Of a stretch of 64,000 nt of DNA, positions 1-15,714 are shown piece by piece. The notes under the pieces were generated by a model. The model was not told the origin of the DNA. It searched no databases and was given only the letters and a program-made list of their open reading frames with translations. The stretch is from Halalkaliarchaeum desulfuricum (lineage in GTDB: Archaea > Halobacteriota > Halobacteria > Halobacteriales > Haloferacaceae), in contig NZ_CP025066.1 of assembly GCF_002952775.1 (NCBI RefSeq), forward strand, positions 2,976,001-3,040,000, given 5' to 3'. The translations under genes and the position numbers were made by a program. Each line of letters opens with the position of its first letter. The first letter of the stretch is position 1.

Positions 1-2
1 CG

Positions 3-467
3 ATCCCAGTAAAGCACTATATCGAAGAGTATCACTTCGCTCCGACAGCAGCCCTGTTGCTTACTCGTGGCCTTATCGAGGAAGTAGGAACTTTTGATCC
101 AGAATTGACGTCTGGAGAGGACCGTGAGTTCGGAAATCGTGTATACGAACGAGGATATGAACTCTATGTGAGCGACTGTGAGGTGTATCACCCTCCCCGA
201 AAGAAGGTATCGGACCAAACTCAAAAAGCAATCAGAATCGGGGTTGGAATGGAGCAGCTCCGTCGCCAATACCCAGATAGATATTCGCTTCCGAGTTTGA
301 TGTCGCCGCTTTCGTATGCTCCTCCGAATCCCAAACGCCTCAGATCTCGACTTTCGAGTAATAGTTACAAGCCAGACTTCCTCGAATGGATGCTCTTTTA
401 TTTATTTAATTACTTTTTGAAATTGTACCAACAACTCGGCCGATGGCAGCACTTTCGTAACCGTTAG
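3..467 (+). CDS. Glycosyltransferase family 2, C-terminal part (cut by window edge)
   Basis: The open frame runs from the window edge with no stop, so only about the last 154 residues of a GT2-type sugar transferase are present. The segment YIEEYHFAPTAALL, a GEDREFGNRVYERGY segment and a following HPPRKK align with equivalent parts of the next gene (YIERQQFAPTCCLF, GGDKEFGNRVHDAGY, HPTRNS). The two are therefore paralogues. The usual N-terminal nucleotide-sugar domain lies outside the window. This gene is clearly AT-richer than its neighbour, which suggests different origins for the two copies. Donor and acceptor sugars cannot be inferred. Confidence 0.85.
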   Translation: MPVKHYIEEYHFAPTAALLLTRGLIEEVGTFDPELTSGEDREFGNRVYERGYELYVSDCEVYHPPRKKVSDQTQKAIRIGVGMEQLRRQYPDRYSLPSLMSPLSYAPPNPKRLRSRLSSNSYKPDFLEWMLFYLFNYFLKLYQQLGRWQHFRNR

Positions 468-604
468 TAGGATAGATCATATCTCTGGAAAACAAGCTTC
501 TATTGAATACCATTGATAAATGATTTTTCTCAATATCTCGACGATCCCCTGTTTCAACGCATTCATACCATGATTAGAAGTCACTTACACCCACTGAACT
601 ACCG

Positions 605-1507
605 ATGATTGACTCATCAGTCGATATCATAACCCCCGTCTACAACGATCCCAACGGAATCACCGAGACCCTCGACTCCCTCCTCGCTCAGTCTACCACA
701 CACGACTACCACATCGCTATCGTCGACAACGACTCCACCGATCGCACCCCCGACATCGTCCGTTCGTACGACCACGACCACCTCACTCTCCATCACGAAC
801 GCGAGGTCCAGTCCTCTTACGCCGCCCGCAACACGGGCATCCGCAACACCGACAGCGATATCCTCGCATTCGTCGACGCCGATATGTCCGTTCCCGAGAA
901 CTGGCTCGAGGACGCTCTCACCGCGTTCCGCGCCGCCGAAGCCGACTACATGGGCTGTCACGTCGAGCTCGAACTCCCGGAGAATCCGACTCTCGCCGCA
1001 CGCTACGACCACCACACAGGCTTCCCAGTCGAGGGCTACATCGAACGACAGCAGTTCGCCCCGACCTGCTGTCTGTTCGTCCGCCGCGAGGTGTTTGCGG
1101 ACGTCGGCCTGTTCGATCACCGCCTCGAGTCCGGCGGCGACAAGGAGTTCGGAAACCGCGTTCACGACGCGGGCTACGACCAGCACTTCGCGAGCGATGT
1201 CACGATGACGCACCCGACCAGGAACTCGATCCCCCAACTCGTCTCGAAGGACCGCCGCGTCGGCCGCGGCCTCTGCCAGCTCCAGCGGTACCACCCCGAC
1301 CGCTACGGTACGCCCGGCGTCCCGCCGCGTCCGACCGGGATCAAGCGCCCCGATCGCGATCTCCCGACGCGTGATCGCCTCGCGTTCGGCACACTCTCGA
1401 CGTTCCTCACGGGCGTCCGGGGACTCGGCTACTACCAGGAGTACCTGACTGGCGACCGACGTGACGACGGCGACGGAATCCCGCAGCTTCCGGCTGCCGA
1501 TCGATAA
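605..1507 (+). CDS. Glycosyltransferase family 2
   Basis: A 300-residue GT-A fold enzyme that should transfer a sugar from a nucleotide- or lipid-linked donor at the cytoplasmic face. The start ATG is followed by the GT2 N-terminus (DIITPVYNDPNGITETLDSLL). The segment VDNDSTDRTPDIV follows, then the DxD-like FVDADMS near residue 98, which should bind the metal-nucleotide. The length is normal for soluble GT2 enzymes and no membrane segment is seen. It lies 137 bases after a truncated paralogue in the same direction. Third positions are strongly GC-rich, unlike that paralogue. The specific sugar is unknown. Confidence 0.9.
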   Translation: MIDSSVDIITPVYNDPNGITETLDSLLAQSTTHDYHIAIVDNDSTDRTPDIVRSYDHDHLTLHHEREVQSSYAARNTGIRNTDSDILAFVDADMSVPENWLEDALTAFRAAEADYMGCHVELELPENPTLAARYDHHTGFPVEGYIERQQFAPTCCLFVRREVFADVGLFDHRLESGGDKEFGNRVHDAGYDQHFASDVTMTHPTRNSIPQLVSKDRRVGRGLCQLQRYHPDRYGTPGVPPRPTGIKRPDRDLPTRDRLAFGTLSTFLTGVRGLGYYQEYLTGDRRDDGDGIPQLPAADR

Positions 1508-1685
1508 CGTCGATCCTACGGCGATCGTCGAGGTGAACGGTACGCCGCCCATCGAGGACCTCTTCCGCAACAACCTCGCGGACGTCGCCAATCGACAGCA
1601 GGAGGACCGCGTCGATTCCGCGTTCATCGTCGAAGAGTCCCCCTGCTCGCCGGCGGTGGGTGATGGTTCAGCAGCGACGGAATAG
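1461..1685 (+). CDS. Possible small protein or gene remnant
   Basis: The 74-codon frame overlaps the end of the preceding transferase in another frame. From about position 1500 it has a convincing GC-rich third-position pattern and a protein-like acidic composition (VDPTAIVEVNGTPPIEDLF). I do not recognise a family. It may be a short real gene or the 3' remnant of a gene whose start was deleted when it was joined to the transferase. The GTG start chosen is simply the most upstream one. Confidence 0.3.
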   Translation: MTTATESRSFRLPIDNVDPTAIVEVNGTPPIEDLFRNNLADVANRQQEDRVDSAFIVEESPCSPAVGDGSAATE

Positions 1686-1787
1686 CCCCAGGCCCCCAGC
1701 GCCACAGACCCTCGACTGCGAACCGCACAGCGATCCTCGATCCGGAGAGTGACAGGATTTTTGCGAGTCCCTTCGAACACCCCCACC

Positions 1788-2599
1788 ATGTCGTCGCCCT
1801 CCACCAGCCCCTCCAGGAGTCCGCCATCGCTCGATCAACTCCTCACCCGCACGCTCGCGCATCTCGATCGCCTGCTCGTGCTGGCAGCCGTCCCGCTTGT
1901 GACGTCCTTGCTCAACGTCAGCGACCTGTTGGCCACCGCGCAGACGCGTGGGATGTCCGTCACCGCATCGTTTCCGGTGTATCGCTACGACCTCTGGAGC
2001 TTCGTCGACGCCCCCGACGACGGTGGCCTCACGGTCTCGGTGCCGTTCGGGACGGTGGAGTCGATCGCGCTCGTGATTCCCCTGCTCGTGGCCTACGTGA
2101 TCGTGTCCGGCGCCCTCAGTGCAGGGTATTTCGGCAGCATCGCGTCGGGACTTACGACCGGGTCGTTCGATTTCGTCGCCAACGTGCGCCGGTTCGGCCT
2201 CCGGATGATCGCACTCGAGGTGCTCGTGATCGCCGCGTTGCTCGTCGTCTTCCTCCCGTTGCTCGTGGTCCCCCCGCTGTTCGTCCTCGCGATCCTCGCC
2301 GTCCTGGTCCTCGCGTACTTCCTGTTCCCGACCGTCTACGTGCTCGTACTGGAGGACCGCGGCATCGAGTCCGCCCTCCGCCGGGGGTATGACCTCGTGA
2401 CGACACACCAGCCGATCGTGGTCTTCCTCGCGATCGTCGTGGCGACGCTCATGTGTTCGGTCCCGCTGAGCTCCTGGCGTATTCGGGGATCGGTGGCGCG
2501 CTCGTGGCCGCACTCCTCGCCGCACCCCTCGGGCTCGCGTTCAACGTCGCGACCATGGTGATGGTGCCCAGCATGGTCGACGTCAGCGTGGTGGAGTGA
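1788..2599 (+). pseudogene. Haloarchaeal multi-pass membrane protein with a C-terminal frameshift
   Basis: From ATG 1788 the frame encodes hydrophobic stretches at about 30-50, 90-120, 140-190 and 210-225 (for example VLVIAALLVVFLPLLVVPP), as in small haloarchaeal polytopic proteins of unknown function. Near 2455-2480 the coding signal leaves this frame and continues one frame earlier as LLAYSGIGGALVAALLAAPL, ending at TGA 2597-2599. This is what a single missing base would do. Without the shift the frame runs into an Arg/Ser-rich tail to 2561. It could be a true pseudogene or a sequencing error. It is not clearly linked to the neighbouring transferases. Confidence 0.6.
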
Positions 2600-2634
2600 G
2601 GTCCATCGTCGAAACTGCTTCCAGTTGGGGGACC

Positions 2635-2712
2635 CACACCTCGTACCGAGTGAAATATGGATGGCTGACGATCACCAGCACTCGGCGGGAGCAGCCCGGT
2701 CGGGACGTTCCC
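2635..2712. repeat. Class A ORB-like repeat with a 60-base tail (copy 1)
   Basis: The core CACACCTCGTACCGAGTG contains arms CTCG/CGAG around TAC. A tail (GATCACCAGCACTCGGCGGG and onward) follows and recurs almost identically at 4536-4612. The same core without this tail recurs beside the orc1/cdc6 gene further on. Confidence 0.6.
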
Positions 2713-2800
2713 GAGTGGAAGCGTCTCCCTCTTCTCTTTCCGTTCCATCCTTCCCCCTCCCGTCACGCTAGCGTCTTCCGATCGCTGTCGTCGTCGAACT

Positions 2801-2845
2801 GACTCACCACGATTCGACTCACCACGATTCGATCCGTCGCGATTC
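2801..2845. repeat. Three 15-bp tandem repeats
   Basis: GACTCACCACGATTC occurs at 2801-2815 and 2816-2830, with a divergent third copy (GATCCGTCGCGATTC) at 2831-2845. They lie just downstream of the PIN toxin gene, outside any convincing frame. Function unknown. Confidence 0.6.
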
Positions 2846-2887
2846 GACCCGCCGCCATCTCGCCTATCGGGGTAGATCAGGTCAGCA

Positions 2888-3325
2888 TCAGTCGAGCAGC
2901 GTTTCGGGGACGAGCCGATCGACCAGGCCGTCGAAATCGTCGTCGAAGCTCAACACCGAGTCGACGTCGTGGTGCTCGACCATCGCGACGGTCATCGCGT
3001 CGGTGAAGTTGAGTCCGTGGTCGTCGTACCGTTCGTAGATTGCGACGGCGTCCTCGAAGCGCCGTGGCGAGGAGTAGAGCAACTCGATGGCGTCCGGATA
3101 TCCCGCTCCCCGGATCCGGCGCCCGACCGTCACCGCGTCGGATACCCGTCCCGTCTGCCGGTGGGTGAGGGTCACCGTCTCGTCGTAGACGTAGTCGCTG
3201 GTCATCGGGCGGCCGTACTCCACCGATCGAAGGACGCGTTCCAGTGCCCGCGTGGCGACGTCGTGGCGGGTCGCGTCACGATCGTGGTGCGCGTACAGGA
3301 CGCCCGTGTCGAGGAAGACGCTCAT
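2888..3325 (-). CDS. PIN-domain ribonuclease toxin (VapC-like)
   Basis: This 145-residue protein begins MSVFLDTGVLYAHHD, the usual PIN start with the first acidic residue (D6). Conserved acidic positions continue with YVYDETV near residue 48, LNFTDAMTVAMV near 103 and VLSFDDDFDGL near 120, giving the expected metal-binding quartet. Family knowledge: PIN toxins cleave RNA and are held inactive by a co-transcribed antitoxin. The start was placed at ATG 3325 rather than further upstream because this gives the canonical PIN N-terminus and a 4-base gap from the upstream antitoxin gene. The protein appears full length. Confidence 0.85.
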   Translation of the reverse strand: MSVFLDTGVLYAHHDRDATRHDVATRALERVLRSVEYGRPMTSDYVYDETVTLTHRQTGRVSDAVTVGRRIRGAGYPDAIELLYSSPRRFEDAVAIYERYDDHGLNFTDAMTVAMVEHHDVDSVLSFDDDFDGLVDRLVPETLLD

Positions 3326-3329
3326 CCGT

Positions 3330-3605
3330 TCACCCGTACAGGATCTCGTCGATGTCGTCCTCGTCGGTCTCCACATCCGAGGAGATCTGTCCCTCGTGGA
3401 ACCGGGCGATCTCCTCCTCAGAAAGCGCCGTCGACCCGTCTCTAAACGAGTCGACGAACTCGTCGCGGGACTCGTAGGCGTCCTCGACGAGCCGTTCCAG
3501 GACCTCCTGTTGTGTCACTTTCGTTCCCGTCTCGAGTTTGATCGCCGCCTGGAGTTCCTCGAGGCGGGACTTCGTGTCTTCGTCCATCTTGACTGCCGTC
3601 GCCAT
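3330..3605 (-). CDS. Antitoxin of the PIN toxin (VapB-like)
   Basis: This 91-residue acidic protein lies immediately upstream of the PIN gene on the same strand, ending 4 bases before it. The N-terminus MATAVKMDEDTKSRLEELQ resembles the short DNA-binding part of haloarchaeal VapB-type antitoxins. The C-terminus (VETDEDDIDEILYG) is the kind of acidic tail that wraps its toxin. A TATA-like AATTAAG on the minus strand lies about 25-30 bases upstream (3628-3636), so the pair should start close to its start codon and be autoregulated. Family assignment rests on context and general character. Confidence 0.75.
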   Translation of the reverse strand: MATAVKMDEDTKSRLEELQAAIKLETGTKVTQQEVLERLVEDAYESRDEFVDSFRDGSTALSEEEIARFHEGQISSDVETDEDDIDEILYG

Positions 3606-3758
3606 AGATGTGGTTGTATCTGGAACTCAATTAAGTCTTCTACCGACTCGGCTGGGCGATCGTCCATCCACGAGCCGAATCGTCGTATCGAGAACGAGCA
3701 TTCCGAAACGGGTATTCACAGCCGTTCCCCGCGGGTATCGTCGACGATCGCTGACGTG

Positions 3759-4034
3759 TCACAGCGTTTCATCGTCAGGAGGGGACAGCGCGGCACGGCT
3801 CAACGCTTCGATATCCGCGATCACCTCGTCGTGGATCTCGCGATCGAGCACGCCGGCGCCCGTGACGTCGGCGAGTTGTCGACGATCCTCGAGATACTCC
3901 CGGATGACCTCGCTGAAGCTTCGATCGCCCTTCTCCGGTTCGAGCGACTGTTTCCGGGCGAGCAGCCTCGTTGCATCCGCCACGAACTCGACCTTGTCGA
4001 TAATTCGGTCGATCGTCCCGTCATCAAGCGTCAA
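3759..4034 (-). pseudogene. HepT-like stub fused to an antitoxin-like tail
   Basis: The first ~30 residues (TLDDGTIDRIIDKVEFVADA and on to ARKQSL) match the usual start of haloarchaeal HepT/DUF86 HEPN ribonucleases, the partners of MNT nucleotidyltransferases. The rest departs completely: RSFSEVIREYLEDRRQLADV reads like the C-terminus of a VapB-class antitoxin. The HEPN catalytic Arg-x(4-6)-His motif is absent. A TTG start at 4034 gives an 11-base overlap with the MNT gene, the usual mntA-hepT arrangement. I infer a recombinant chimera. Whether it still binds the MNT partner is unknown. Confidence 0.55.
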
Positions 4035-4464
4035 CGGCGTCCTCCATCTCGGTGAGTAGCGCGTCGAATCGGTCGAGCCGATCACCGCGCGTGTCTTCAG
4101 TCGTTCGATCGGCGAACTCTCGCCGTCGCCGATCGGCCCGTCCGGGGCTCCCGACGAGGAGCACCCCCCGTTCGAGGGCTGCCTTCCCGATCGCCGGGCG
4201 AACCCCGTCGAGATCGACGACGTCGACGTCGTCAGTTCCCAGTTCTCGGGTCAGATCGACGATCACGTCGAGTCGTGCCCGCCGTCTCTCGTCGGGTGAG
4301 AGCTCCCCGTCGAATTCGACGGCAACGTCGACGTCGCTGTGGGCGTGTGTCGATCCGGTCGCCCGCGAGCCGAAGAGGACACCGAGTCGAATCGGGTACC
4401 CCTCGAGGACACGCCGGATCGCATCGACGTCGATTGCATCCGTATCGTCGGCGGTGCCGGCCAT
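4024..4464 (-). CDS. MNT-type nucleotidyltransferase (MntA-like antitoxin)
   Basis: This 146-residue minimal nucleotidyltransferase carries GSRATGSTHAHSDVDVAVEF (near residues 32-51), the GSxxxG...SDxDxAV signature that binds NTP and metal. A further acidic strand, DVDVVDLD, follows. Family knowledge: MntA proteins inactivate HepT toxins by adding AMP to a Tyr next to the HEPN active site. The adjacent hepT here is chimeric and lacks its active site, so the enzyme may be an orphan. ATG 4464 was chosen over further upstream frame because the upstream part is repeat-derived. A TATA-like box at 4488-4496 fits this start. Confidence 0.85.
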   Translation of the reverse strand: MAGTADDTDAIDVDAIRRVLEGYPIRLGVLFGSRATGSTHAHSDVDVAVEFDGELSPDERRRARLDVIVDLTRELGTDDVDVVDLDGVRPAIGKAALERGVLLVGSPGRADRRRREFADRTTEDTRGDRLDRFDALLTEMEDAVDA

Positions 4465-4487
4465 ACGAGTGGATAGCTCCGCTTCGC

Positions 4488-4496
4488 GTATAAAGC
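4488..4496 (-). promoter_or_regulatory. TATA-like box for the MNT gene
   Basis: Minus-strand GCTTTATAC lies 24-32 bases before ATG 4464, the usual haloarchaeal spacing for leaderless or short-leader transcripts. Confidence 0.5.
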
Positions 4497-4535
4497 ATGG
4501 CTCGCGATGGCAGATCACGGTCGGAAAATGAACCA

Positions 4536-4612
4536 TCACACCTCGTACCGAGTGACGGACGTGCAACTGAGGATCACCAGCACTCGGCGGGAGCAGCCCG
4601 GGCGGGACCTTC
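4536..4612. repeat. Class A ORB-like repeat with a 60-base tail (copy 2)
   Basis: Near-identical to 2635-2712: the same TCGTACCGAG core and the same tail. Together the two copies bracket the PIN/antitoxin and MNT/HepT genes as direct repeats. Confidence 0.6.
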
Positions 4613-4724
4613 CTGAAAACAATCGCCCAGCCCACCCCGTCAACCTACCGTCTTTCGCTTGCTGTGATCACCGGGCGCAGTTGTTTCCGGGCCTGGCAGC
4701 GTGCCCGCCCCTCTCCCCTGGGGT

Positions 4725-5456
4725 TCAACATTCCAGAACCGTTCCGTTTCGAGGGTCTGCATCCTCGTCATCGGTGCGATAGATGACTCCGGGGGCGACG
4801 TAGTAGGCGGCAGACAGATAGTGATCCCCGTGGACGCCCGGGAGCTCGCTCTCCGAGACCCGGATCAGGTCACCCTGGTAGTCGATGACGACCCCGTCGA
4901 CGTCGCCGGCCGCCGCCTCGAGTTGGTCCCGGGTCCGTCGGTAGTCGGGGTGTTTCTCGGGAATGTCGGCGGTCCGGTCCCCCGTGGCGGCCTGCTCGAG
5001 CGCCTCCTGGAGCGTCGGGTTGTCTTCGAACGTCTCGTGGTCCCACGGGACGGGATCCGTCGCCGCGTCCGTCACCAGTTCGAATCCGAGGACCGTCCGG
5101 TCCGGTTCCCACGTCGCCCAGAAGGTTTCGACTGTGACACGATAGCCCTCGTCGACGTGCGTCACGTCCACGATGCTGGTTCCCGGATCCTCGATCCGGT
5201 CGTACTGCTCGCGATCGATCCGGGTTTGATCGACGTAGGCCGGTTCGTACTGTTCGAGGAAGGATTCGACAGTGTCACGGTCTAGTTCTGTCGGTGGCTC
5301 CACGTCTTCGACGGTGTCGACGGGACACGCCTCCGGGCGGGCGTCGTCGGGCTGGGGTCCGGCGCCGTCGCCGCCGTCGCCGCCGTCGCCGAGACAGCCA
5401 GCACTCGCGAGGGGCGGGAGGCCGCCGAGCGACGCGAGGACGGTGCGTCTGTGCAT
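4725..5456 (-). CDS. Tat-exported lipoprotein of unknown function
   Basis: From ATG 5456 the protein has 243 residues. It begins MHRRTVLASLGGL and has a lipobox (LASAGC) with Cys near residue 20, then a Gly/Asp linker, the typical form of a twin-arginine-translocated, lipid-anchored haloarchaeal surface protein. The rest is acidic and soluble with no family I recognise. A YRVTVETFWATWEPDRTVLG segment and four Cys including one at the extreme C-terminus can be noted. An upstream in-frame ATG exists, but the Tat signal favours this start. It stands alone between an MNT module and the origin scar. Confidence 0.75.
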   Translation of the reverse strand: MHRRTVLASLGGLPPLASAGCLGDGGDGGDGAGPQPDDARPEACPVDTVEDVEPPTELDRDTVESFLEQYEPAYVDQTRIDREQYDRIEDPGTSIVDVTHVDEGYRVTVETFWATWEPDRTVLGFELVTDAATDPVPWDHETFEDNPTLQEALEQAATGDRTADIPEKHPDYRRTRDQLEAAAGDVDGVVIDYQGDLIRVSESELPGVHGDHYLSAAYYVAPGVIYRTDDEDADPRNGTVLEC

Positions 5457-5552
5457 GGGGTCCGGTGAGTCGCTGGGGGAATAACGGTGTTCGAGACTGA
5501 AACAGTCACCTGGGTGTTGGTCGGGCATTGTGTGGGGTCCGACGTGGGACGA

Positions 5553-5590
5553 CTGGCGTGTTCCGTGCGCTCAGGAGTCAGCGATCGGAT
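5553..5590. repeat. Short direct repeat (copy 1 of 2)
   Basis: About 37 bases (GCGTGTTCCGTGCGCTCAGG and onward) recur with few changes at 7087-7124. The two copies bracket the origin scar and a hairpin element. Confidence 0.5.
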
Positions 5591-5669
5591 GCCGTTTCGC
5601 GTACTGTACTGGTATAACGGAGCGATGTACGGCCGTCGCACGTCGACGGTATATCCGTGCTAACCACTA

Positions 5670-5945
5670 CACCCACCCACACACCTCGTACCGAGTGTAC
5701 TACTCGCGGTCGGGGGCTTCGAGGACGAGCACAGGAGATTGAAACAACCGGTGGACACGATCGGTCACCCCCACCCCCGGGTGTGTCGTGAACTATTGAG
5801 AACTCCTCTACCCCATCCGTGGTTGTTCTCGGCAGGCGGTCCGATTCAACTCGATCACTGTAAGGTCGATCCTCCGATTCGAGTTCGCGACATACCCGGG
5901 AGTGGGTTGATCAGTAACCAGTCCGAGATATCGTGCCGCGCGAGC
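5670..5945. other. Decayed replication origin scar (orc gene lost)
   Basis: In order: a class A repeat (core near 5682-5699), about 35 bases matching the last codons of the Orc C-terminal relic at 9265 (minus strand reads LVLEAPDRE then stop), a class B repeat (5766-5799), about 85 bases nearly identical to 9815-9900, and a second class B repeat. That second repeat runs into sequence matching the downstream side of the intact orc gene (GATCAGTAACCAGTCCGAG against 11203 onward). The order is that of the intact origin with the orc gene removed. Confidence 0.65.
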
Positions 5946-6866
5946 GAGTGTCCGAGATATTTTGTAACTCCTTCGGCGACGGCGATCAGGTTGCTGTCCG
6001 ACAAGTAGCGGATGGTGGGAATCCGACAACGTTTCATCACCCGAATTGGAGTCACGGCCGAAAGCCGACCATTGCAAACAAACGACCCCAAACAGAGCCC
6101 GACCCACCCCCAAAGACGGCCATCGACAGTCACCGGAACCCCGGCACGTCGACGCGAGGTCGGCTGCCACACTGACGACCCATCTGATCCGCGGGCGCAG
6201 TCGCAGTCACCCGCCATCCCGGCCGACCGAGAGGACTGCAGACAGGCACCCGGCAGCGACAGCGTCTCTCGACAGCCGTGTGCCGTCGGCGAGGCGGAAC
6301 ACCGTACTCCCGGGAAGTCCGGGTGGCGACACCGACGCCTGAAACCGACGTCGTGGCTGTCGCCGCTGCGACCGACGTCGTCGGCACGCACCGGGTAGGT
6401 CTCGTCACCTCCCGTCATCGCCGTTCCCGGCGACTCCAGTCCTGACTCGACCGCACTCGATCTCTACCCTCATCTTCTCGGTCCGGGTTCTCGAGCGACA
6501 GATCGGCCGTCGCTCGTCACACCTGTGTGTGTCATGTATCCTGTACTCCGGAACGAAGAGATGTCTGTCAGGCCACTGTGGAGCTATTGCAACCCCCGAG
6601 TCCATCTGTGACCGCACCTGTAGCCGTCAATAGTGCTGTCACAGCTGGTATCTCGCTTCAGGAGACGGGACCCCATCAGGGGACGTCGCCGCTGGATCGC
6701 TACGAGTTGGATGCGCCTGGGTGTTCGGCGATCCGGACGCTTTCGTCGGTTTCGGCCGAAATGTTCGAGCGGGTGTTGACGGCGGACGGGGGGTGATGGT
6801 GGGACTGGTAGCGATCGGGATGGCGGCGAGAGGATGGAGACGGTGTCGAAGGGAGACGGACATCCA
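5946..6866. other. Gene-poor spacer
   Basis: Open frames occur on both strands but none shows consistent codon bias, a recognisable family or a promoter. I see nothing I can support here. Confidence 0.4.
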
Positions 6867-7066
6867 GAAAGCCCCCGGCCGCTCGACTTCGTTCGCTCCT
6901 TCGGCGGTCTCCCGGCGGTCGACCGCCCGTCGCTCACCCGCCGGGGCTTGCTGCGCGCTTCCCTCGCTTTTCGAGGTCTCCCTTCGGTCGACCTCGCCTC
7001 GCTCGGTGCAGTGCTTGCGGCGCCCGGGCGGGATCGAGCGGCCGGCCCCTTTCAGTCCCGCCCGGG
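6867..7066 (+). repeat. Covarying hairpin element, copy 1
   Basis: Ends GAAAGCCCC and CCCCTTTCAGTCCC enclose a perfect 11-bp stem (CGGCCGCTCGA with TCGAGCGGCCG) and a GC-rich interior of about 160 bases. Two shorter relatives with the same ends but different stems lie at 12105-12220 and 40725-40840. Confidence 0.6.
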
Positions 7067-7086
7067 ATGTTTGGGTGGCTTCGGGG

Positions 7087-7124
7087 CGGCTGGCGTGTTC
7101 TGTGCGCTCAGGAGTCAGCGATTG
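7087..7124. repeat. Short direct repeat (copy 2 of 2)
   Basis: Partner of 5553-5590 (GCGTGTTCTGTGCGCTCAGG and onward), immediately after the hairpin element. Confidence 0.5.
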
Positions 7125-7284
7125 ATTTCATGACTGATAATCGGGAGGAATGGTTTAATTACCACCTCTCAGTAGGATGTGATATCCACCACCGGAGATG
7201 CGGGGGTGCGGCGGCGGTGTCGCAGCCGCGTTTGGTGGGGAGGATCGAAGACGACAACCGATTCGAAACACAACGAGACAAATC

Positions 7285-7743
7285 ATGCAATTGAAAGCGT
7301 TTTTCGAAGACAGAGAGGCGGTATCGCCCGTAATCGGGGTCATTCTCATGGTCGCGATTACGGAGATCCTGGCTGCGGTGATCGGGACGTTCGTGCTCGG
7401 GCTGGGTGACCAGGTCGGGGAGACGGCGCCGAATGCGAATTGGGGTACTGACGTTAATGAGGATGAAACGGAGGTAACGTTCACTCACAACGGCGGGGAC
7501 AGCGTTGACAAAGACGAACTCCGATTCACGGTGTCAGGTGATGTTTCGCTTGAGGACGCGGATGATCACGGGGATGGCGGGGAATTAAAAGAGGCAGTCG
7601 ACACCCCACTAACCGCTGGAAGCAGCATCACAGCGGTCGTATCTGTTGATAATGATGATGATACTGGAACAGTAACACTCGTCTGGGAATCTGGAGACCA
7701 ATCTAGCGTTCTTAAATCGGTTGATGTTGATCCCGACGCATAA
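7285..7743 (+). CDS. Type IV pilin (PilA-like) with Glu inside the hydrophobic segment
   Basis: This 152-residue archaeal pilin has a short charged leader (MQLKAFFEDREA), then the haloarchaeal [20 protein letters not shown] segment and TFVLGLG. The leader should be removed by the prepilin peptidase PibD; the hydrophobic helix then packs in the pilus core. The C-terminal part is an acidic beta-rich head (TLVWESGDQSSVL near the end). The conserved Val in [11 protein letters not shown] is Glu here, whereas the next pilin keeps Val. ATG 7285 is the only start that gives a proper class III leader. It is tandem with a second pilin, with no secretion ATPase or membrane platform nearby. Confidence 0.9.
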   Translation: MQLKAFFEDREAVSPVIGVILMVAITEILAAVIGTFVLGLGDQVGETAPNANWGTDVNEDETEVTFTHNGGDSVDKDELRFTVSGDVSLEDADDHGDGGELKEAVDTPLTAGSSITAVVSVDNDDDTGTVTLVWESGDQSSVLKSVDVDPDA

Positions 7744-7957
7744 GCTGTAGAACTTCTTATTTATTCATCTGCTATATAGATATACATCTATAGCTATGCT
7801 TCTCAAATTTTTCACCCATGATAATTAGCAGAAAGGCTTTATCAGTGAGACAAAAGAATCGGCAAGTCACCACCACGATGCTAGGGGCACACGACACACT
7901 AGCGGTGCAAGAGATGGCTAGCGCTGCGTGTCACCCATCAGTGGGGGATTCAAAATC

Positions 7958-8473
7958 ATGCACTTGAGAGAGTTATTCAAGGACAGAGAGGCGGTATCGC
8001 CCGTAATCGGGGTTATTCTTATGGTCGCGATTACGGTAATCCTGGCAGCAGTGATCGGGACGTTCGTGCTAGGTCTCGGAGATCAGGTGGGAGATACGGC
8101 ACCGAACTCGCAGTTCGAAGGGGAACAATTGACCGAAGATATGGAAGGACAGGATGTGGAGGAAATTGTAGACTTCCGCCATACCGGCGGAGATAGCGTT
8201 GAGGGCAGTGCACTTGGGATAAGTGTTAGCGGACTTAGTGGGGAAGATGTTGACTCTGAGAATATTGAGTTTGATCTGTTAACTGATGAGGGTTCCTTGA
8301 GTGCAGGTGACACCGCCACAGTTGAAGTAGAAGTTACTGGAGGTGACCCTACTTCCGAGGACGTAGTAGTTAATGAAGGTACAGAGATCAGCCTTACGTG
8401 GGAAAGCGGAGATCGGTCGTCCGTACTCCGTGCATACGAACTACCAAATGACATCGAGTACGGCGAAGAATAA
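7958..8473 (+). CDS. Type IV pilin (PilA-like)
   Basis: This 171-residue pilin starts [20 protein letters not shown] and continues with the standard [20 protein letters not shown] helix. The head domain is more divergent and longer than that of the upstream pilin, but both end with a similar WESGDxSSVL strand. Such genes occur as variable sets whose pilins support adhesion and microcolony formation. ATG 7958 gives the expected leader. The head domain is AT-richer than the conserved N-terminus, as expected of a fast-evolving surface part. Confidence 0.9.
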
Positions 8474-9238
8474 GGAGTCAACCTTAGCGTGAAGGAAGCG
8501 GCCGAGCAAGGGTGGATTGGTGGTTCAACAATGCTCAACCGCATGGTTGAGAAGACTCGCCAACAGGAAGTATTTCCCCGAGGGAACACCCCGACCGAGC
8601 GGCGTGTCCTCGCAGCGTTTTTGTACATGCTGGCCCCTCGATCAGCGGATCGTACCGTTAGTCGGTCCTGTTTTTGAAGGAAATACTCAACAGTGCCGAG
8701 GTCGCCCGCTGGTGCGGGCTGATCGCGGCCCGTAGTACGATTGGACGCTGAAATTGTTAGACTGCGAGTATGAATGTAAAACGTGGGAAATCGGTCACTG
8801 ATTAAGGTGTGGTTCGGGGTTTTCAAGTACCGAACCAAACGATTTTATCACCGATTCCCCTTCCACAACATCGACAGCTCAACCAGATCGCGGCTCACAG
8901 CCTTTGCCGCTCTTCAAATGCCACGCTCTAACCTTGACACCCTTGTAATTCATCTATGATCCAACTCTTTGCGTTTCAGCGATCCGCTCAGCTTAAGTAA
9001 ACAGTTCAAAGATGAGCCCGTGGTACGACCGACATTCACCGAGATACGTTCTCAATGCGCTCTCGAACGTCGACGATCACATCGACACCAAGGGGCAATC
9101 GAAGAACGCCAATACCGGATCAGCGTTTCCGACTACATCGGTAACTCGTCACCGACGGCCGTGAACAGCGTGACGTGTTCGATGCCAAGAGGAAACAGCA
9201 CGAAGCGTCGCCGACACCGAGATTCCATCATAGAACTG
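8474..9238. other. Intergenic stretch without a supported gene
   Basis: There is a weak stem (GGTTCGG at 8811-8817 with CCGAACC at 8830-8836). A short coding-looking stub around 9010-9140 (plus strand, SPWYDRHSPRYVLNALSN) is not recognisable. Nothing else can be supported. Confidence 0.35.
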
Positions 9239-9265
9239 GACCCACACACCTCGTACCGAGTGTAC
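9239..9265. repeat. Class A ORB-like repeat at the 3' end of the Orc relic
   Basis: CCCACACACCTCGTACCGAG followed by TGTAC, abutting the stop codon of the orc relic; the same arrangement survives in the origin scar at 5670. Confidence 0.65.
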
Positions 9266-9546
9266 TACTCGCGGTCGAGGGCTTCGACGACGACCTCGGG
9301 GGACCGGAGCAACCGATGGACGCGATAGCTCCCTTCCCCATGGCCACCGCCAGTGTACTCGCTTTCGGTGATACCCAAAAACGCCTGTTCCTTGAGGAGA
9401 CGCTGCACGCGATCGTAACTCAAGGGAGACGTGTTCGTTTGACTGACGACGTTCTCGTAGGCGTCGTACACCTCCGCAGTGCGGAATCGGGTCCTGCCAG
9501 TCTCTTCGGTGAGTAACGCAAGCGCGCGAAGGATGTGTTGTTCTAG
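9265..9546 (-). pseudogene. Orc1/Cdc6 C-terminal winged-helix relic
   Basis: About 93 codons (EQHILRALALLTEETG through FRTAEVYDAYENVV, RVQRLLKEQAFLGITESEYT and SYRVHRLLRSPEVVVEAL) match the C-terminal wHTH of Orc1/Cdc6. The closest partner in this window is the minus-strand orc at 43130 (FRTTEVFDVYRLV, RVRELLDEQAFLDITEAHVT, YKLHRLLKDPDVV). The AAA+ part with Walker motifs is missing. The upstream open frame to 9624 is unrelated sequence. It is a third, dead orc paralogue next to the living orc gene. Confidence 0.75.
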
Positions 9547-9686
9547 GTCGCACGACCTCGCGGAGGGCAGAAGTGTAGTCTCCCCTTTTAGGCACCTGTG
9601 TTTGATTGACGGCCGTTTTCGCATCCGACAGTGGGATCGCTCGCACCCAGAGATTACTGCGCCCCCAGCTTCGAATAGTAGAAACT

Positions 9687-9927
9687 ACCCCCACCCCCGG
9701 GTGTGTCGTGAACTTCGAGCGGTTACTCTCGCTTGGAGCCTTCCCTCCGATCGATCACGGTCGACGTGACGGGAGACGATAGATCACCCCCACCCCCGGG
9801 TGTGTCGCGAACTATTGAGGATTTCTCCACCCCATCCGTAGTTGTTCTCGGCAGGCGGTTCCGATACAACTCGATCACTGTGAGCTCGATCCTCCGATTC
9901 GAGTTCGCGACACACCCGGGGGCTTGA
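9687..9927. other. Replication origin, upstream half (class B ORB-like repeats)
   Basis: There are three class B repeats: 9687-9714 and 9785-9819 (CACCCCCGGGTGTGTCG) and the inverted 9901-9927 (TTCGCGACACACCCGGGGGC). The last lies about 20 bases from the TATA box of orc1/cdc6. Repeats beside an orc gene are the normal setting of archaeal origin recognition boxes. Function is inferred from position, GC-string structure and duplication in the 5.7-kb scar. Confidence 0.65.
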
Positions 9928-9946
9928 CGACGTTCACGATGCACAA

Positions 9947-9956
9947 GTTATATATG
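9947..9956 (+). promoter_or_regulatory. TATA box of orc1/cdc6
   Basis: GTTATATATG is centred about 27 bases before ATG 9979 in an otherwise GC-rich stretch, with a class B ORB-like repeat immediately upstream. Initiator binding there could repress its own promoter. Confidence 0.6.
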
Positions 9957-9978
9957 AAAGACTGATTATGAACAACCT

Positions 9979-11172
9979 ATGCCGGAGTATTTTCAGGACC
10001 GGTCGTCGATTTTTGCCGACGAGTCCGTTCTGGTTGAAGAATACACGCCGGACGAACTCCCGGAACGCGAGGCCGAACTCACGGAATTAGGCGCTGCCCT
10101 GAGTCCCGGGTTGGGGACTGGCAGGCCTCACGACGTGTTCCTCCAGGGGAAGACAGGTCAGGGAAAGACGGCCGCGGCTCGGTTCATCCTCGATGAGTTC
10201 GAAGCCGAGGCGGCCGACAAGGACGTCGATCTCACGACGATCTTTCACACGTGTGCCGGACAGACCTCGTCGTATCAAGTCGTCTGTAATCTCGTCGAAC
10301 AGCAGACGGGTGAGAACCCGAACGGCCATCCAAAGCGAACGGTGTTCGATCACTTTTATGATCTCCTCAACGATATCGGCGGGACGATCGTCCTCGTTCT
10401 CGACGAAGTCGACGCCATCGGGCAAAACGACCTCCTCCTGTACGAACTGAGTCGTGCGAAGGACAACGACCACATCGCCGACGACGTCGACGTGAGTGTG
10501 ATCGGCATCAGCAACGACGGGAACTTCCTCGCAGAGCTCTCGCCGAAAGTGAAAGACTCGTTCCGGGAGCGTAGGGTCATGTTCGACGCGTACGACGCGG
10601 AGCAGCTCCGGTCGATCCTCGAACGTCGCGTCGAGAAAGCCTTCGTCGACGATGCCGTCGACGAGAGCGCGATCGCGCTGTGTGCCGGCTACGCCGCGAA
10701 CGATCAGGGCTCCGCCCGGCAGGCGATCGACTACCTCTACGAGGCCGGCGAGATCGCGCTCCGGCAGGGCGACACGCGAGTGACGGACGAACACGCCGAG
10801 CAGGCCGAGGCGAAAGTCGACCGGCGGTCCGTCATGCGAAGCATCGAGGAGCTCACGCTCCAGGACCATCTGGCCCTCGTCGCGCTCGTCGTCCTGGAGG
10901 CTCACGGAGAGACCCCCGCACGGACGCGACGGGTGTATGCGACCTACCGAAACGTCTGTGCGGAGATCGACGCAAACGACATTTCGCTGGACCGCGTCCG
11001 TGACCATCTCAAGGAACTCGATCTGCTCGGCGTTACGCAGTACACGACCCGGACAGCCGGATCCGAAGGGGGACGGAAGTACTTCTGGGAACTCAATACG
11101 GATCTGGGTGCGACGATCGAAGTCCTGGATTCGATCGATCGGCTCGACGGGGTGATGCATCTGGTCAGATAG
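9979..11172 (+). CDS. orc1/cdc6: Orc1/Cdc6 replication initiator (first copy)
   Basis: This 397-residue AAA+ initiator binds origin repeats and recruits MCM. Walker A QGKTGQGKTAAA is near residues 56-66, Walker B LVLDEVDAIG near 139-147, and sensor 1 IGISNDGNF near 175. The C-terminal winged helix runs from about 305 (LALVALVVLEAHGE ... RVRDHLKELDLLGV). It starts at ATG 9979 with a TATA box at the right distance. ORB-like repeats lie on both sides, one overlapping its stop codon. It is clearly different from the orc at 43130 and probably serves a different origin. Length and motifs are those of an active protein. Confidence 0.93.
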   Translation: MPEYFQDRSSIFADESVLVEEYTPDELPEREAELTELGAALSPGLGTGRPHDVFLQGKTGQGKTAAARFILDEFEAEAADKDVDLTTIFHTCAGQTSSYQVVCNLVEQQTGENPNGHPKRTVFDHFYDLLNDIGGTIVLVLDEVDAIGQNDLLLYELSRAKDNDHIADDVDVSVIGISNDGNFLAELSPKVKDSFRERRVMFDAYDAEQLRSILERRVEKAFVDDAVDESAIALCAGYAANDQGSARQAIDYLYEAGEIALRQGDTRVTDEHAEQAEAKVDRRSVMRSIEELTLQDHLALVALVVLEAHGETPARTRRVYATYRNVCAEIDANDISLDRVRDHLKELDLLGVTQYTTRTAGSEGGRKYFWELNTDLGATIEVLDSIDRLDGVMHLVR

Positions 11173-11508
11173 TTCACGACACACCCGGGGGTGGGGGGTG
11201 GGTCGATCAGCAGCCAGTCCGATATCGTGGTGGAGGCGACACCGGCGAGTTCGGCAGGTAGCAGTCTCTCTCGGAGTTGCGAAAGACTCGGTCAGAATTC
11301 GACCGGAAGAACTGCGTCGAGACGGCCAGTTTCGAATCACCGGATGGTCGGTCGTACACGACGGGGGCAGCCCGGGCCGTGTCGACGTCTCGGACGGTGA
11401 CAGTGGATCCGTCTCGATCTTCACTCGGTACGAGGTGTGTGGGTGGGGGATCGTACGGTGCTGCAGTTGGTCACAGAGTTCGCGACACACCCGGGGGTGG
11501 GGGTGTAT
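11171..11508. other. Replication origin, downstream half (class A and B repeats)
   Basis: Class B repeats lie at 11171-11206 and 11475-11508 (CGACACACCCGGGGGTGGGG). An inverted class A repeat lies at 11422-11450 (CACTCGGTACGAGGTGTGTG then GGTGGGGG). No gene is supported between 11173 and 11559. The repeats face those upstream of the orc gene, giving a roughly symmetric arrangement. Confidence 0.65.
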
Positions 11509-11559
11509 CGATTAGGGACCAAAACGATGATCGAATTGCAGGGATCATCACTCCCTGGA

Positions 11560-12009
11560 TCACACCGCGGGGTCGTCGACGACTCGATCGAGGAGTTTCC
11601 CGATCGGTGTGAGTTCGAGGGATGGCCGGACGAGGAACCAGACGAGGACGAGGCTCGCGCCGAGGGTGTTGACGATGACGTCAGCGACCATGAAGTGGGT
11701 TCGTTCGGGCACGAACACCTGACCAAACTCCATGAGGATCCCGTACGAGGCGGCGATGGCGATCACGAGGGCGGCGTGGCGCCAGCGCGGCAGTCGCCAG
11801 TGGTCGGTGGCGTACGCGAGGGTGCCGGCGAGGGTGCAGTAGGCGACGAAGTGACGCCAGTACGAGAGTGGACTGAACCACGGGCGGGCGTCGTCGACGA
11901 TCGTCTCCGGTGGGGGTGACAACAGGGAGGCGTAGAGTATAAGGCCGGCGACGGCGGCGACGGCCGTCCATCGGATCGGACGGGGCAACAGGGGGATGGT
12001 TGGCCGCAT
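11560..12009 (-). CDS. VanZ-like membrane protein
   Basis: A 149-residue protein with four predicted membrane helices (about 12-30, 48-65, 80-97 and 115-133). The VanZ-family pattern is visible: SYWRHFVAYCTLAGTLAYA in the first half, then GILMEFGQVFVPERTHFMVA and DVIVNTLGA near the end. The start at ATG 12009 gives the natural N-terminus; upstream frame is low-complexity and repeat-derived. VanZ relatives are small envelope proteins of uncertain role in archaea. Nothing nearby suggests an operon. Confidence 0.8.
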   Translation of the reverse strand: MRPTIPLLPRPIRWTAVAAVAGLILYASLLSPPPETIVDDARPWFSPLSYWRHFVAYCTLAGTLAYATDHWRLPRWRHAALVIAIAASYGILMEFGQVFVPERTHFMVADVIVNTLGASLVLVWFLVRPSLELTPIGKLLDRVVDDPAV

Positions 12010-12531
12010 TGGATTCGGGTGGTTGGTGTGGTTTGAAGGGTGTTGTGGTTTTAGGGTGATTTCGAGTGCAGTTTTGTTGGAGTTGGCAGAGCTGTGACTT
12101 CCTCGAAAGCCCCCGCCAGTTCGACTCCCGGGACCGCGGCTGCGCTCCTCGCTCCCTCCGGTCGCTGCGGTGCTTGCCGGGTCCGGGTTCGCCGAACTGG
12201 CGGCCCCTTTCAGTCCCACCCGATGGTAATTAGCTAGGCTACAGTGGGTAAGAGAGAAAATGGGACTGGCAGTTCGGAAAACCAGGAGTAGCAACCCTAC
12301 GAAAAATGAGGGCCGGACAGGGAAAGCGCCTCAGATCACTCGAAAGGTGACCAAAAGTAACCGCGAGAGTCCCGGAAGCCACCATCGTGGGTATTTATAA
12401 GGAGCTCGGGGGTTCTGACCGAAAAATTCAGGTGATTTACCTCAGATATAACAAATTTATGATTTTTTGAGATATACTTATTACCGCAGCTTGATTATGT
12501 CAATACACCCACACTGGTGGGGGAGAAATAC
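12010..12531. other. Intergenic stretch with hairpin element and promoter region
   Basis: It contains the second covarying hairpin element (12105-12220) and, near 12450-12480, AT-rich sequence (AGATATACTTATT) that may hold the promoter of the beta-helix gene. Otherwise nothing is seen. Confidence 0.4.
12105..12220 (+). repeat. Covarying hairpin element, copy 2
   Basis: Begins GAAAGCCCC and ends CCCCTTTCAGTCCC. The stem CGCCAGTTCG pairs with CGAACTGGCG, a different sequence from copies 1 and 3. The interior has TGCGCTCCTCGCTC and CGGTGCTTGC, shared in similar form with copy 3. Confidence 0.65.
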
Positions 12532-13524
12532 ATGAACCGCGAAACTCAGCCGTTTCGACGACGTACAATGCTTAAAACGATCGGCGCGTCCGTAGTTGCG
12601 AGTGGCGCGTTAGCGGGAGGCGCAGTCGGCAGCGATCACTGTGACCACACAGTAGAGGATGGGGAATCTATTCAAGCTGCAATTAATGAGGCAGAAGATG
12701 GCGATGTCATTTGCATTGAGTCAGGCACGTACGAGGAGAGTCTCAACATTACTCAGGCAGACGGCTTGACGCTCGAAGGTGCCGGGCCTGGTGAAGTAGT
12801 GGTCGATGCCTCGGGAGAAAAGGGGTATGGTGTAGATGGCGTCTTCTCGTCAGATGAGTGGGGCAGTGACGTTACACTTCGCGGATTCACCTTAAAAGGC
12901 CCGAGGCAAGGAACCGCATCACAGAACTTCGGACTGAAACTCTCATATATAGATGGGTTGACCGTTGAGAACGTGCACGTCACAGAGAGTCGTCGGACAG
13001 GTATCGATGTCAATCCTGCCGAGAATGTATCGTTACGTGATGTCAAATCGACGGACAATGATGCAAACGGGATCGCCATCCGGGACGCTGCCGACGTGAC
13101 TGTCGACAATGCGACGACTGAGGGCAATGCGTGGGGAGGGTTTGCTTTCTATGCACTAGGCGAGGAGAGCGTAGACAATGTGGTCATCTCCAATTCGACT
13201 TTCCAGAACGAACCAGCGGGCATCTATCTACAACATACTGATCATACAAATATTCGTATTAGAGAGAGTTCTCTCGTGGATAACACGGTGGGATTGGCGG
13301 TGGCGGAAAGCGTAGACGGTGGAGAAGTAACGGCGAACAACAACAATATCGAAGGCAATGCCGATTATGGTGTCGTGAATCAAAGCGATGGTATCCTCGA
13401 TGCTCGACGGTGCTGGTGGGGCGACAGACGAGGACCGAACAATCCCGCAGATGAACGTGGTGGCGACGGGGACACAGTTTCCGAGAACGTGCGCTTTCGC
13501 CCCCACCGGAATAGACCAGTCTGA
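12532..13524 (+). CDS. Tat-exported right-handed beta-helix (NosD-like) protein
   Basis: This 330-residue secreted protein has an N-terminal twin-arginine signal (FRRRTMLKTIGAS) that ends around ALAGGAVGS with no lipobox Cys. The mature part opens with the DGESIQAAINEAEDGDVICI motif that starts many parallel beta-helix proteins. Repeated turns follow (GLTLEGAG, LTVENVHV, VSLRDVKS, VTVDNATT). Near the end come NADYGVVNQSDG and WWGDRRGPNNP, common in NosD/pectate-lyase-like folds. ATG 12532 was preferred over GTG 12517. A role in binding or cleaving surface polysaccharide is possible given the neighbouring island, but substrate residues cannot be assigned. Confidence 0.8.
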   Translation: MNRETQPFRRRTMLKTIGASVVASGALAGGAVGSDHCDHTVEDGESIQAAINEAEDGDVICIESGTYEESLNITQADGLTLEGAGPGEVVVDASGEKGYGVDGVFSSDEWGSDVTLRGFTLKGPRQGTASQNFGLKLSYIDGLTVENVHVTESRRTGIDVNPAENVSLRDVKSTDNDANGIAIRDAADVTVDNATTEGNAWGGFAFYALGEESVDNVVISNSTFQNEPAGIYLQHTDHTNIRIRESSLVDNTVGLAVAESVDGGEVTANNNNIEGNADYGVVNQSDGILDARRCWWGDRRGPNNPADERGGDGDTVSENVRFRPHRNRPV

Positions 13525-13827
13525 TCAGCGTATCGGCATCTATCTCATCTCAGATGTCTCCGCCGTTCCTTGATTGGTGGTTCGTCAAAACCAAGGGTTC
13601 AGTCGGTATATGACGTCGAATCGAACTACCCGTCATGCCACATCCGCCTCTGTTTTGCAGGACGTTGGTCAGTTTCCTTGAGTAAGCAAGAGCCGTTCTA
13701 AAACCGACTCACAGACATCTCTCGACACCACCTTCTGGCACTGACGCCCCAAATTGAATAACGAGGACCGAACTGGTCACAAAACGAATCCAATGCGTAT
13801 AAACGAAGGTAACCCGACCACCCGATA
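13525..13827. other. Spacer before the exporter gene
   Basis: No supported gene or repeat. It marks the left edge of the polysaccharide island. Confidence 0.4.
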
Positions 13828-15630
13828 ATGAGCGAGGCCGAAGAGATCAGTCGGCGCGAGCAGCTCCGGGCGCTGATACGGGTCGCCAGATATCGCCCGG
13901 TGTTTACCGCCGCGATCGTGGTCGGCGGCGTCTTCGCCGCCCTGCTCGAGGGCGTCGGCCTGAGTTTTATCCTCCCGATCGTCGAGATCGTCCAGGCCCC
14001 CGGCGATCCCGCAGCCGAAGCCGACGGGGTGATGCTTGCGTTCGTGACTGCCTATCAGTACCTCGGCATTCCCTTCACCCTCGGATTCGTCATCGCCGGC
14101 GTGAGTCTGGTGCTCGCGATACGGTGGACGTCGACGTTCCTGGTTCGGTGGCTTCGAGAGGCACTGGTCGTCGATTACACGCGAGAGATCCAGAAGCGTT
14201 CCTTCGACAATGCGCTGGATGCACGAATCGCGTACTTCGACGAGGAGGGATCCGACGACATCCTCAACGCCATCGTCACGCAGGCTGAGTATGCCGGGCG
14301 GACGATCAAGTACGTGATTCAACTGATAGAGCAGTTCTTCTTGGCCTTAATGTATCTCGCAATCGCACTCATTCTGGCCCCGTATCTGACGCTGTTTGCG
14401 ATCGCGCTGCTGGGTGGGTTTACAGTGTTGTTCCGGTACGTCGTCGAGCCGGGATACGAACTCGGTGACAAGGTCGCCGAGGCGAACGAACTCGTCCAAC
14501 AGACGGCGCAGGCAGGGACACAGGGGATTCGGGACACGAAGGCGTTCGGACTCAGAAAAGAACTGTTTCAGGACTTCCTCGATGCAGTGAACCAATTCGC
14601 GGAGTCGAGTATCAAGCTTCGCCGAAATGAGCAGGCGATCAAGAGCTTTTACAACCTGTTGACTGCCGTATCCGTGTTCATTCTGATCTATCTGGCCATC
14701 GTCTTTGCCGACATGTCGCTTGGCGCGTTGGGGATCTTCCTGTTCGCGATGTTCCGGTTGGGGCCGAAGGCGAGTAACCTGAACTCGCTGTTTTATAAGG
14801 TCGAGAACAACCTTCCGCACCTGGTTCGAACCCAGCAGTTCATCGACGAACTCGAACGGAACAGCGAGCCCGACGCCGATGCAGAGCCGGTTCCAAGCGA
14901 GGTTCGGACCGTCGAGTTCGACGACGTGTGGTTCTCCTATAACGACGACGAGCAGGTTCTTCGCGGCATCGACTTCGAGGTGGAGAAGGGCGAGTTTATC
15001 GGGTTCGTCGGGCAGTCGGGTGCCGGGAAGTCGACGATCGTGTCGTTGCTGGCACGGATGTACGAGGTCGATCGAGGAGAGATTCGGGCGAACGGTCGGC
15101 CGATCGACGAGATGGACATCGACGAGTGGCGCGATCGGCTGTCGTTGGTACGGCAGAGTCCGTTTATCTTCAACGACACGCTTCGGTACAATCTGACGGT
15201 CGGGAACCGGGACGTGAGCGAGCGGGAGCTGGATCGGGTGTGTGAGATCGCGAAGGTGGACGAGTTCATGATGGATCTGCCCGAGGGATACGACACGATG
15301 TTGGGAGATGATGGGGTTCGGCTTTCTGGTGGGCAGAAGCAGCGGGTTGCGTTGGCGCGGGCGTTGATCGAGGACGCGGATCTGTTGGTTCTGGACGAGG
15401 CAACGAGTGACCTAGACTCGAATCTGGAGAAGCAGGTGCAGCAGGCGATCGAAGAGATGGAACGCGACTATGCTATTATTACGATTGCGCATCGGTTGTC
15501 GACGGTGAAGAACGCGGATCGGATCTATACGGTCGAGGATGGCCGGATTACGGAGGCTGGGGAGCACGGAGAGTTGGTCGATAACGGTGGGAAATACGCA
15601 GAGCTGTACGGAATCCAGTCGAGTGGATAG
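13828..15630 (+). CDS. ABC exporter, fused permease and ATPase (glycolipid flippase type)
   Basis: A 600-residue half-transporter. Residues 1-330 hold about six membrane helices (for example FTAAIVVGGVFAALLEGVGL and MYLAIALILAPYLTLFAIAL). Residues 350-600 form the ATPase: Walker A GQSGAGKST near 394-402, signature LSGGQKQRVALARAL near 499, Walker B LLVLDEATSDLD near 519, and an IAHRLST switch His near 554. It belongs to the MsbA/PglK-like class and should work as a homodimer moving a lipid-linked glycan across the membrane. It opens the polysaccharide island. No Wzx-type flippase is seen, so this is the best candidate for export. Confidence 0.88.
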   Translation: MSEAEEISRREQLRALIRVARYRPVFTAAIVVGGVFAALLEGVGLSFILPIVEIVQAPGDPAAEADGVMLAFVTAYQYLGIPFTLGFVIAGVSLVLAIRWTSTFLVRWLREALVVDYTREIQKRSFDNALDARIAYFDEEGSDDILNAIVTQAEYAGRTIKYVIQLIEQFFLALMYLAIALILAPYLTLFAIALLGGFTVLFRYVVEPGYELGDKVAEANELVQQTAQAGTQGIRDTKAFGLRKELFQDFLDAVNQFAESSIKLRRNEQAIKSFYNLLTAVSVFILIYLAIVFADMSLGALGIFLFAMFRLGPKASNLNSLFYKVENNLPHLVRTQQFIDELERNSEPDADAEPVPSEVRTVEFDDVWFSYNDDEQVLRGIDFEVEKGEFIGFVGQSGAGKSTIVSLLARMYEVDRGEIRANGRPIDEMDIDEWRDRLSLVRQSPFIFNDTLRYNLTVGNRDVSERELDRVCEIAKVDEFMMDLPEGYDTMLGDDGVRLSGGQKQRVALARALIEDADLLVLDEATSDLDSNLEKQVQQAIEEMERDYAIITIAHRLSTVKNADRIYTVEDGRITEAGEHGELVDNGGKYAELYGIQSSG

Positions 15631-15672
15631 TCACCGAAAAGGAATAGCTACCGGATTCGAACAAGGTAGTCT

Positions 15673-15698: not shown

Positions 15699-15714
15699 TT
15701 GAATCTGCCATTGT

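Follow-up and report, generated by a model that had tools for sequence, protein, structure and literature searches.

A probable relic of a duplicated orc/cdc6 origin in the chromosome of Halalkaliarchaeum desulfuricum

Layout of the two modules

The window, by which we mean the whole stretch of 64,000 nucleotides analysed (positions 2976001-3040000 of the genome, a single contig of 3.31 Mb whose ORB types, Orc families and relatives suggest a haloarchaeon), contains an origin at 9240-11229 and, about 4 kb away, a shortened copy of it at 5672-5935, named here the short module (Table 1). The intact origin carries a full orc1/cdc6 gene (orc), the remnant of another initiator gene (orcX), and class B boxes in the order plus, plus, minus, gene, minus, with a fifth (minus) further along. 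The DNA match of the orcX remnant to the orcX of G001, the one other genome of the genus compared, extends to 9539. Its winged-helix ORF is an open frame with low dN/dS against G001 over the common part; by analogy with Cdc6H_C of Haloarcula hispanica, it may still be expressed as a stand-alone protein. Two type IV pilin genes lie between the modules, with starts that are 86% identical (7280-7433 and 7953-8106), and in G001 similar stretches lie no more than 3 kb from an orc gene. A 40-base repeat (93%) brackets the short module at 5546-5585 and 7083-7122.

Table 1 Features of the short module, the intact origin and the modules of G002. Coordinates are those of the window, except for G002, where they are those of locus L164.
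Feature	Position	Strand	Remark
Short module: class A box, putative ORB of OrcX type	5672-5697	+	Exact 16-mer at 6 genome places within 31 kb; A-type boxes beside orcX elsewhere
Short module: decayed orcX tail, last ~20 codons	5700-5761	-	Part of 75/87 match to 9240-9326
Short module: left putative ORB, class B	5766-5794	+	28/28 identical to 9687-9714; 0 mismatches to B pattern
Short module: spacer between inverted ORBs	5795-5881	.	87 bases, 54% GC
Short module: right putative ORB, class B	5882-5906	-	2 mismatches to B pattern
Short module: flank like sequence 3' of intact orc	5909-5935	.	23/27 columns vs 11205-11229
Intact origin: class A box, directly past orcX stop codon	9240-9262	+	
orcX remnant, 119-aa ORF with Cdc6 C-terminal winged helix	9265-9624	-	Cdc6_C 1.4e-16
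Putative ORB B1	9687-9714	+	
Putative ORB B2	9785-9813	+	
Intact spacer between inverted ORBs	9814-9901	.	53% GC
Putative ORB B3, proposed left deletion partner	9902-9922	-	
Least stable 50 bases within 9660-9980	9930-9979	.	Lost in short module
Intact orc1/cdc6 gene, 397 aa	9979-11172	+	AAA_22, Cdc6_lid, Cdc6_C domains
Putative ORB B4, overlaps orc stop codon, proposed right deletion partner	11171-11197	-	
Flank common to intact origin and short module	11205-11229	.	
Class A box, reversed orientation	11422-11447	-	
Putative ORB B5 (11477-11505) with orc-tail-like stretch before it	11457-11505	-	
G002 modules	L164 5792-6086 and 9703-9998		orc-less

Alignment with the intact origin bears out the order of parts given in the preliminary description: A box, tail codons, B box, spacer, B box, flank. 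The spacer, put there at 85 bases, is two bases longer, and the "last codons of an orc" are indeed the tail of an initiator gene, but of orcX, a gene other than the orc missing on the right. The short module equals the intact origin minus 9327 to about 9771 and minus about 9923 to 11190. Its core is identical to 9772-9920 at 135 of 149 positions, and a two-gap model with breakpoints picked by the analyst aligns 230 of 270 columns over 5675-5935. The likeness begins at 5675 and stops at 5935, and the outer flanks score 22 and 21, inside the null (200 stretches each). The claim that the short module copies the intact origin thus holds for the order of parts, but in the intact copy tail and core are separated by 445 extra bases (9327-9771), which contain an additional B box (9687).

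The similarity was also said to pass into the matching downstream flank rather than to end before it, and the alignment does take in the flank. The region 5901-5960 scores 41 against 11192-11270, in a test that takes in the last G-string bases of the ORB, the highest scores of 5000 shuffles and of 5000 real stretches being 29 and 24, so that chance similarity was rejected; without the G-string and a possible ORB extension, GGGTYGAT, the score is 24, equalled by 3 of 5000 real stretches. GGGTYGAT is perhaps part of an extended ORB because a class B box in the genome G437 has a similar stretch after it. On the left side, the tail scores 44 against the orcX genes of other genomes, a value reached by 0 of 1000 stretches.

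The inverted pair of putative ORBs expected of a haloarchaeal orc/cdc6-adjacent origin is present in the short module. The G-string of its left ORB is intact; that of the right ORB is interrupted (GGGAGTGGG), and the two changes in this box are absent from the other six B boxes. A search of the own genome found no orc at the short module, the nearest full orc gene being that of the intact origin. Boxes kept and an initiator lost or broken are what marks a deficient origin of a variable region, and this is the state of the short module. The AT-rich unwinding stretch required of a haloarchaeal origin is absent from it: the least stable 50 bases of its spacer are matched in instability by 17% of window positions (20% for the spacer between the intact ORBs), and only 3.6% are as unstable as 9930-9979 beside the intact orc. 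GC skew in 4-kb windows climbs from -0.11 (1-4000) to +0.12 (12001-16000), which resembles the vicinity of an origin; gene direction could cause the same rise, and the two modules are inseparable by skew.

Searches of other collections returned little. Pfam gave no match at E up to 0.1 for five ORFs of 5855-9325, and Rfam none in window positions 1-14000. A plasmid collection had no match to 5600-6000; for 9200-11600, the matches listed cover at most 22% of the query and lie over annotated orc or AAA ATPase genes. Neither class B nor orc was found in viral contigs, and class A occurs in one such contig, with no orc or orcX match in its 3.3 kb.

Initiator genes beside the two box classes

Class B is rare. 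With up to 2 mismatches it occurs seven times in the genome, five times at the intact origin and twice in the short module, and in 7 of 392 genomes of the order. We excluded the reading of B as a common repeat, since beyond the seven sites of the genome there is one 3-mismatch site each in the own genome (98750) and in G001. The closest relatives of orc in the family come from 6 of 169 other genomes (E up to 1e-95). Among the five close relatives examined, B accompanies orc in two. In Halonotius pteroides, B follows an orc fragment that is 82% identical over residues 253-396, and two B-like boxes lie upstream past an insertion; G437 has an orc 53% identical with four B boxes upstream and none 3' of the gene. 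By blastn, no B box was found around three orcs that are 50-52% identical (G028, G163, G123), so B does not go with this orc family in general. Since B is seen with orc in two of these five, we take class B for the putative ORB of the intact orc. Apart from the own genome, orc lies inside the 3 kb fetched around the B site in G437 and G080, the G080 box lying 3' of its orc in the orientation opposite to B4; four genomes (G084, G196, G421, G449) have one 23-mer B site in common and no orc in the 3 kb fetched. The Halonotius pteroides locus (L061 10735-12550) is also a case of the same orc family broken, with the AAA part missing and B boxes remaining. The ORF in place of the AAA part is presumably transposon-like, judged by eye from sequence motifs.

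Class A keeps other company. With the 222 aa of G001 orcX as query, 22 of 170 family genomes match at E up to 1e-75. Twenty orcX loci were fetched: one is G001, where only the 222-aa C-terminal part remains, and 19 lie outside the genus, 18 with an open frame and one (L125) with one internal stop. All 19 of the latter have A-type boxes (up to 3 mismatches) upstream of orcX, in a zone from 600 bases before to 250 bases into the frame where shuffled sequence gave none; in 15 the boxes occupy both strands, and 9 of the 19 also have such boxes within 300 bases 3' of the orcX stop. On the strength of these 19 loci, class A is taken for the putative ORB of orcX, a second initiator.

Five of the six exact 16-mers in the genome are on the plus strand and the rightmost is on the minus strand, and one far-off site has two mismatches. 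Three of the six (window 2637-2652 and 4539-4554, genome 2956222-2956237) are orphans without orcX beside toxin-antitoxin genes (MNT, VapBC). These three share a flank of about 100 bases, and the orcX locus of G161 (L151) is also near a VapBC pair. A repeat of toxin-antitoxin cassettes was considered for class A, as these three exact copies adjoin MNT/VapBC, but the boxes upstream of all 19 orcX loci outside the genus make an ORB the better reading. The exact 16-mer is present in 10 of 170 family genomes. Five of the nine others (G012, G129, G139, G146, G161) are in the orcX list and four (G002, G042, G062, G125) are absent from it; orphan A boxes therefore occur elsewhere too, which speaks against a strict link of A to orcX. 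The stretches taken around the A sites of G042 and G125 contain no orc match; of the two from G002, one has none and the other only a C-terminal orc fragment, and that of G062 has an orc 27% identical.

G002, which belongs to another genus, contains a module of 295-296 bases twice, 3.9 kb apart and 94.9% alike. In each, an A-like box (1 mismatch) is joined by sequence resembling the 3' ends of orcX genes and by a pair of third-class boxes. The order of parts is similar to that of the short module, but the paired boxes face the same way, whereas those of the short module are inverted. The orcX likeness, tested in one copy, scores 41, reached by 0 of 972 stretches. The orc and orcX queries found nothing in 15 kb around the modules; an orc C-terminal fragment is about 6 kb from them, and further third-class boxes adjoin a split orc match at a distance of 80 kb. 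The joining of a cut tail to foreign boxes is therefore not peculiar to this window.

Proposed loss of the initiator genes and rival readings

The short module carries putative boxes of two initiator systems, and both genes are gone. We consider it likely that 5672-5935 is what remains of a second 9240-11229 module from which orcX and orc were deleted, orc via B3 x B4. Because the two modules share order and ends, we take the parent for a probable duplicate of the origin; alternatively, two related plasmids may have arrived. The ancestral module would have been compound, a B-spacer-B core flanked by a leftward orcX with its A boxes and a rightward orc with its B boxes, and duplication would have preceded the losses. 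One copy would then have retained orc together with no more than the C-terminal part of orcX. The second copy would have lost orcX except for its last ~20 codons through a deletion involving no B box, the junction of which lies at the short similarity GGACGCGAT/GGAGACGAT, and would have lost orc, the promoter region and the AT-rich stretch through recombination of the same-orientation ORBs B3 and B4. Such a module would presumably have no origin activity at present.

Recombination between B repeats had been proposed in the preliminary description for the scar as a whole; it suits the right half, while the removal of orcX went outside the B boxes. Among models of the right half, a B3-by-B4 deletion (9902 x 11171) scores 240, a B3-by-B5 deletion (11477) 232 and no deletion 225, so loss of orc by B x B recombination would be the best fit by a modest margin. 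A third scar at 11457 was also considered; the orc-tail likeness before B5 is reached by chance in 33 of 5000, too weak to claim. Within 600 bases upstream and 400 downstream of orc, same-orientation 12-mers bracket the gene in 10 of 16 loci (L001 and L002 of the own genome, L021, L022, L025, L027, L029, L030, L031 and L061), so that looping out is possible there; not every one of these 12-mers need be an ORB. They were not found in this zone in the other six (L018, L019, L020, L023, L024, L028), of which L018 and L019 are the closest relatives.

The orcX tail of the short module has decayed. With G001 as outgroup, it has 10 specific changes, the intact tail 1 and G001 10, and one site differs in all three (10 versus 1, p=0.012). 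The tail of the short module thus seems to have drifted, and the orcX fragment of the intact copy either did not or broke later. Over orcX, the window and G001 differ by dN 0.069 and dS 0.68, and the OrcX protein was therefore under selection for much of their separation. The suggested search of relatives for an orc at the site of the short module yielded none, with one other genome of the genus (G001) compared. G001 has no full match of 5100-6100, and 51 kb of the own genome against 35 kb of this single relative gives scattered matches in rearranged order. Against a relic weighs the shared right flank, which is only 27 bases long and in part perhaps an extended ORB; so do the lack of B boxes around the three orcs 50-52% identical and 3' of the G437 orc, the six loci in which no bracketing 12-mer was found, and the want of a relative with orc in place at this site.

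Against plain decay weighs a core less altered than the tail. The left ORB has 1/29 changes relative to the intact copy, the spacer 9/87 (one a gap) and the right ORB 2/21. The core sum of 12/137 compares with 12/49 in the tail (p=0.011), counted by hand from the alignment with the split drawn after the data were seen; the A box with the next 15 bases has 0/38 changes (p=0.0009 against the tail), and ORBs and spacer do not differ in change rate (p=0.54). These counts and the perfect left B box would suit a working Orc-binding site that the product of the orc 4 kb off reaches in trans and that titrates or assists initiation, as oriC2D probably does for Cdc6E in H. hispanica. The available text on H. 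hispanica describes Cdc6 acting in trans, and an 11-ORB cluster that restrains oriC2, probably by titration (PMC3936714), and G002 retains two orc-less modules. We regard this as rather unlikely: the same source reports that mutating either G-string stopped oriC1, and the right G-string of the short module is broken; the unstable stretch 9930-9979 is lost; the boxes number two against 11 in oriC2D; and the core-tail comparison is post hoc, gene conversion with the intact copy giving the same picture. It is a long shot that orc-less ORB modules, made up of one initiator's box, an orc tail and two boxes of another initiator, are kept and copied as chromosomal decoys soaking up plasmid-type initiators. 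Were it so, they would tune the integrated origin or exclude plasmids with the same boxes, with the short module and the G002 pair as instances from two genera.

The direction of change may also be questioned. Deletion and insertion via a repeat would leave the same sequence, and several related orcs are without B boxes, so the orc-less order could be ancestral, with orc arriving later when an orc-B circle recombined into a B box. As orc and B boxes occur together in two other haloarchaea, loss is favoured over gain, and since the short module carries cut-short orcX codons, it would itself be a deletion product on that side; we think a later gain of orc improbable. A patchwork in which small transpositions, one after another, brought unconnected ORB and tail pieces together, instead of a deletion inside one origin copy, would account for the scattered A boxes without orcX and for the abrupt end of the likeness on both sides. 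It has little to recommend it as long as A box, tail, core and flank keep the order and orientation of one origin throughout. We retain the relic reading, in which the short module is a clear case of origin decay, a known process.

Comparison with known haloarchaeal origins

The locus looks like an origin duplicated within one chromosome, and we read the short module as what is left of such a duplicate, in what may be a variable region; decay of this kind has been described for Haloarcula. Wu et al. (2014) report, in the text available to us, origins added, deleted and disrupted in Haloarcula variable regions, including a detached winged-helix ORF (PMC4441112), and ORBs on both sides of orc were already known (PMC3528665). 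No loss of an initiator gene through flanking ORBs is described in the titles and abstract openings among the matches listed, a set drawn from outside subscription journals. Such a loss would suggest a simple off-switch for an archaeal origin, namely the looping out of an initiator gene that has its own binding sites on either side. Because an initiator may be lost from between its sites, lone ORB clusters should not be counted as origins without seeking the missing gene.

As far as the consulted parts of the three papers go, the short module has counterparts in two species. Like oriC2D of H. hispanica, it has ORBs apart from an origin that could in principle bind the same Cdc6; however, oriC2D comprises 11 ORBs directly 3' of cdc6E and is genetically tested, whereas the short module has two ORBs 4 kb away and is known from sequence (PMC3936714). 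It resembles dormant oriC4-cdc6H and oriP1-cdc6L of Haloferax mediterranei in being a spare origin by active ones, the context of oriC4 being variable, but those still have a cdc6 next to them, and their firing once the others are gone was shown or inferred, whereas the short module is without cdc6 (PMC4595724). With the deficient origins of H. hispanica (oriC3-cdc6D, oriC4-cdc6G, oriC5-cdc6H), which are unconserved and in variable regions, it has in common a broken initiator or origin, and the orcX remnant has a parallel in Cdc6H_C, a detached ORF for the C-terminal winged helix (PMC4441112). Those origins became deficient because a transposase had inserted, 203 bp had been lost along with the promoter, or the gene was split (PMC4441112); in the short module, by contrast, an entire gene is lacking from between two ORBs, and the module is a paralogue of an intact origin on the same contig.
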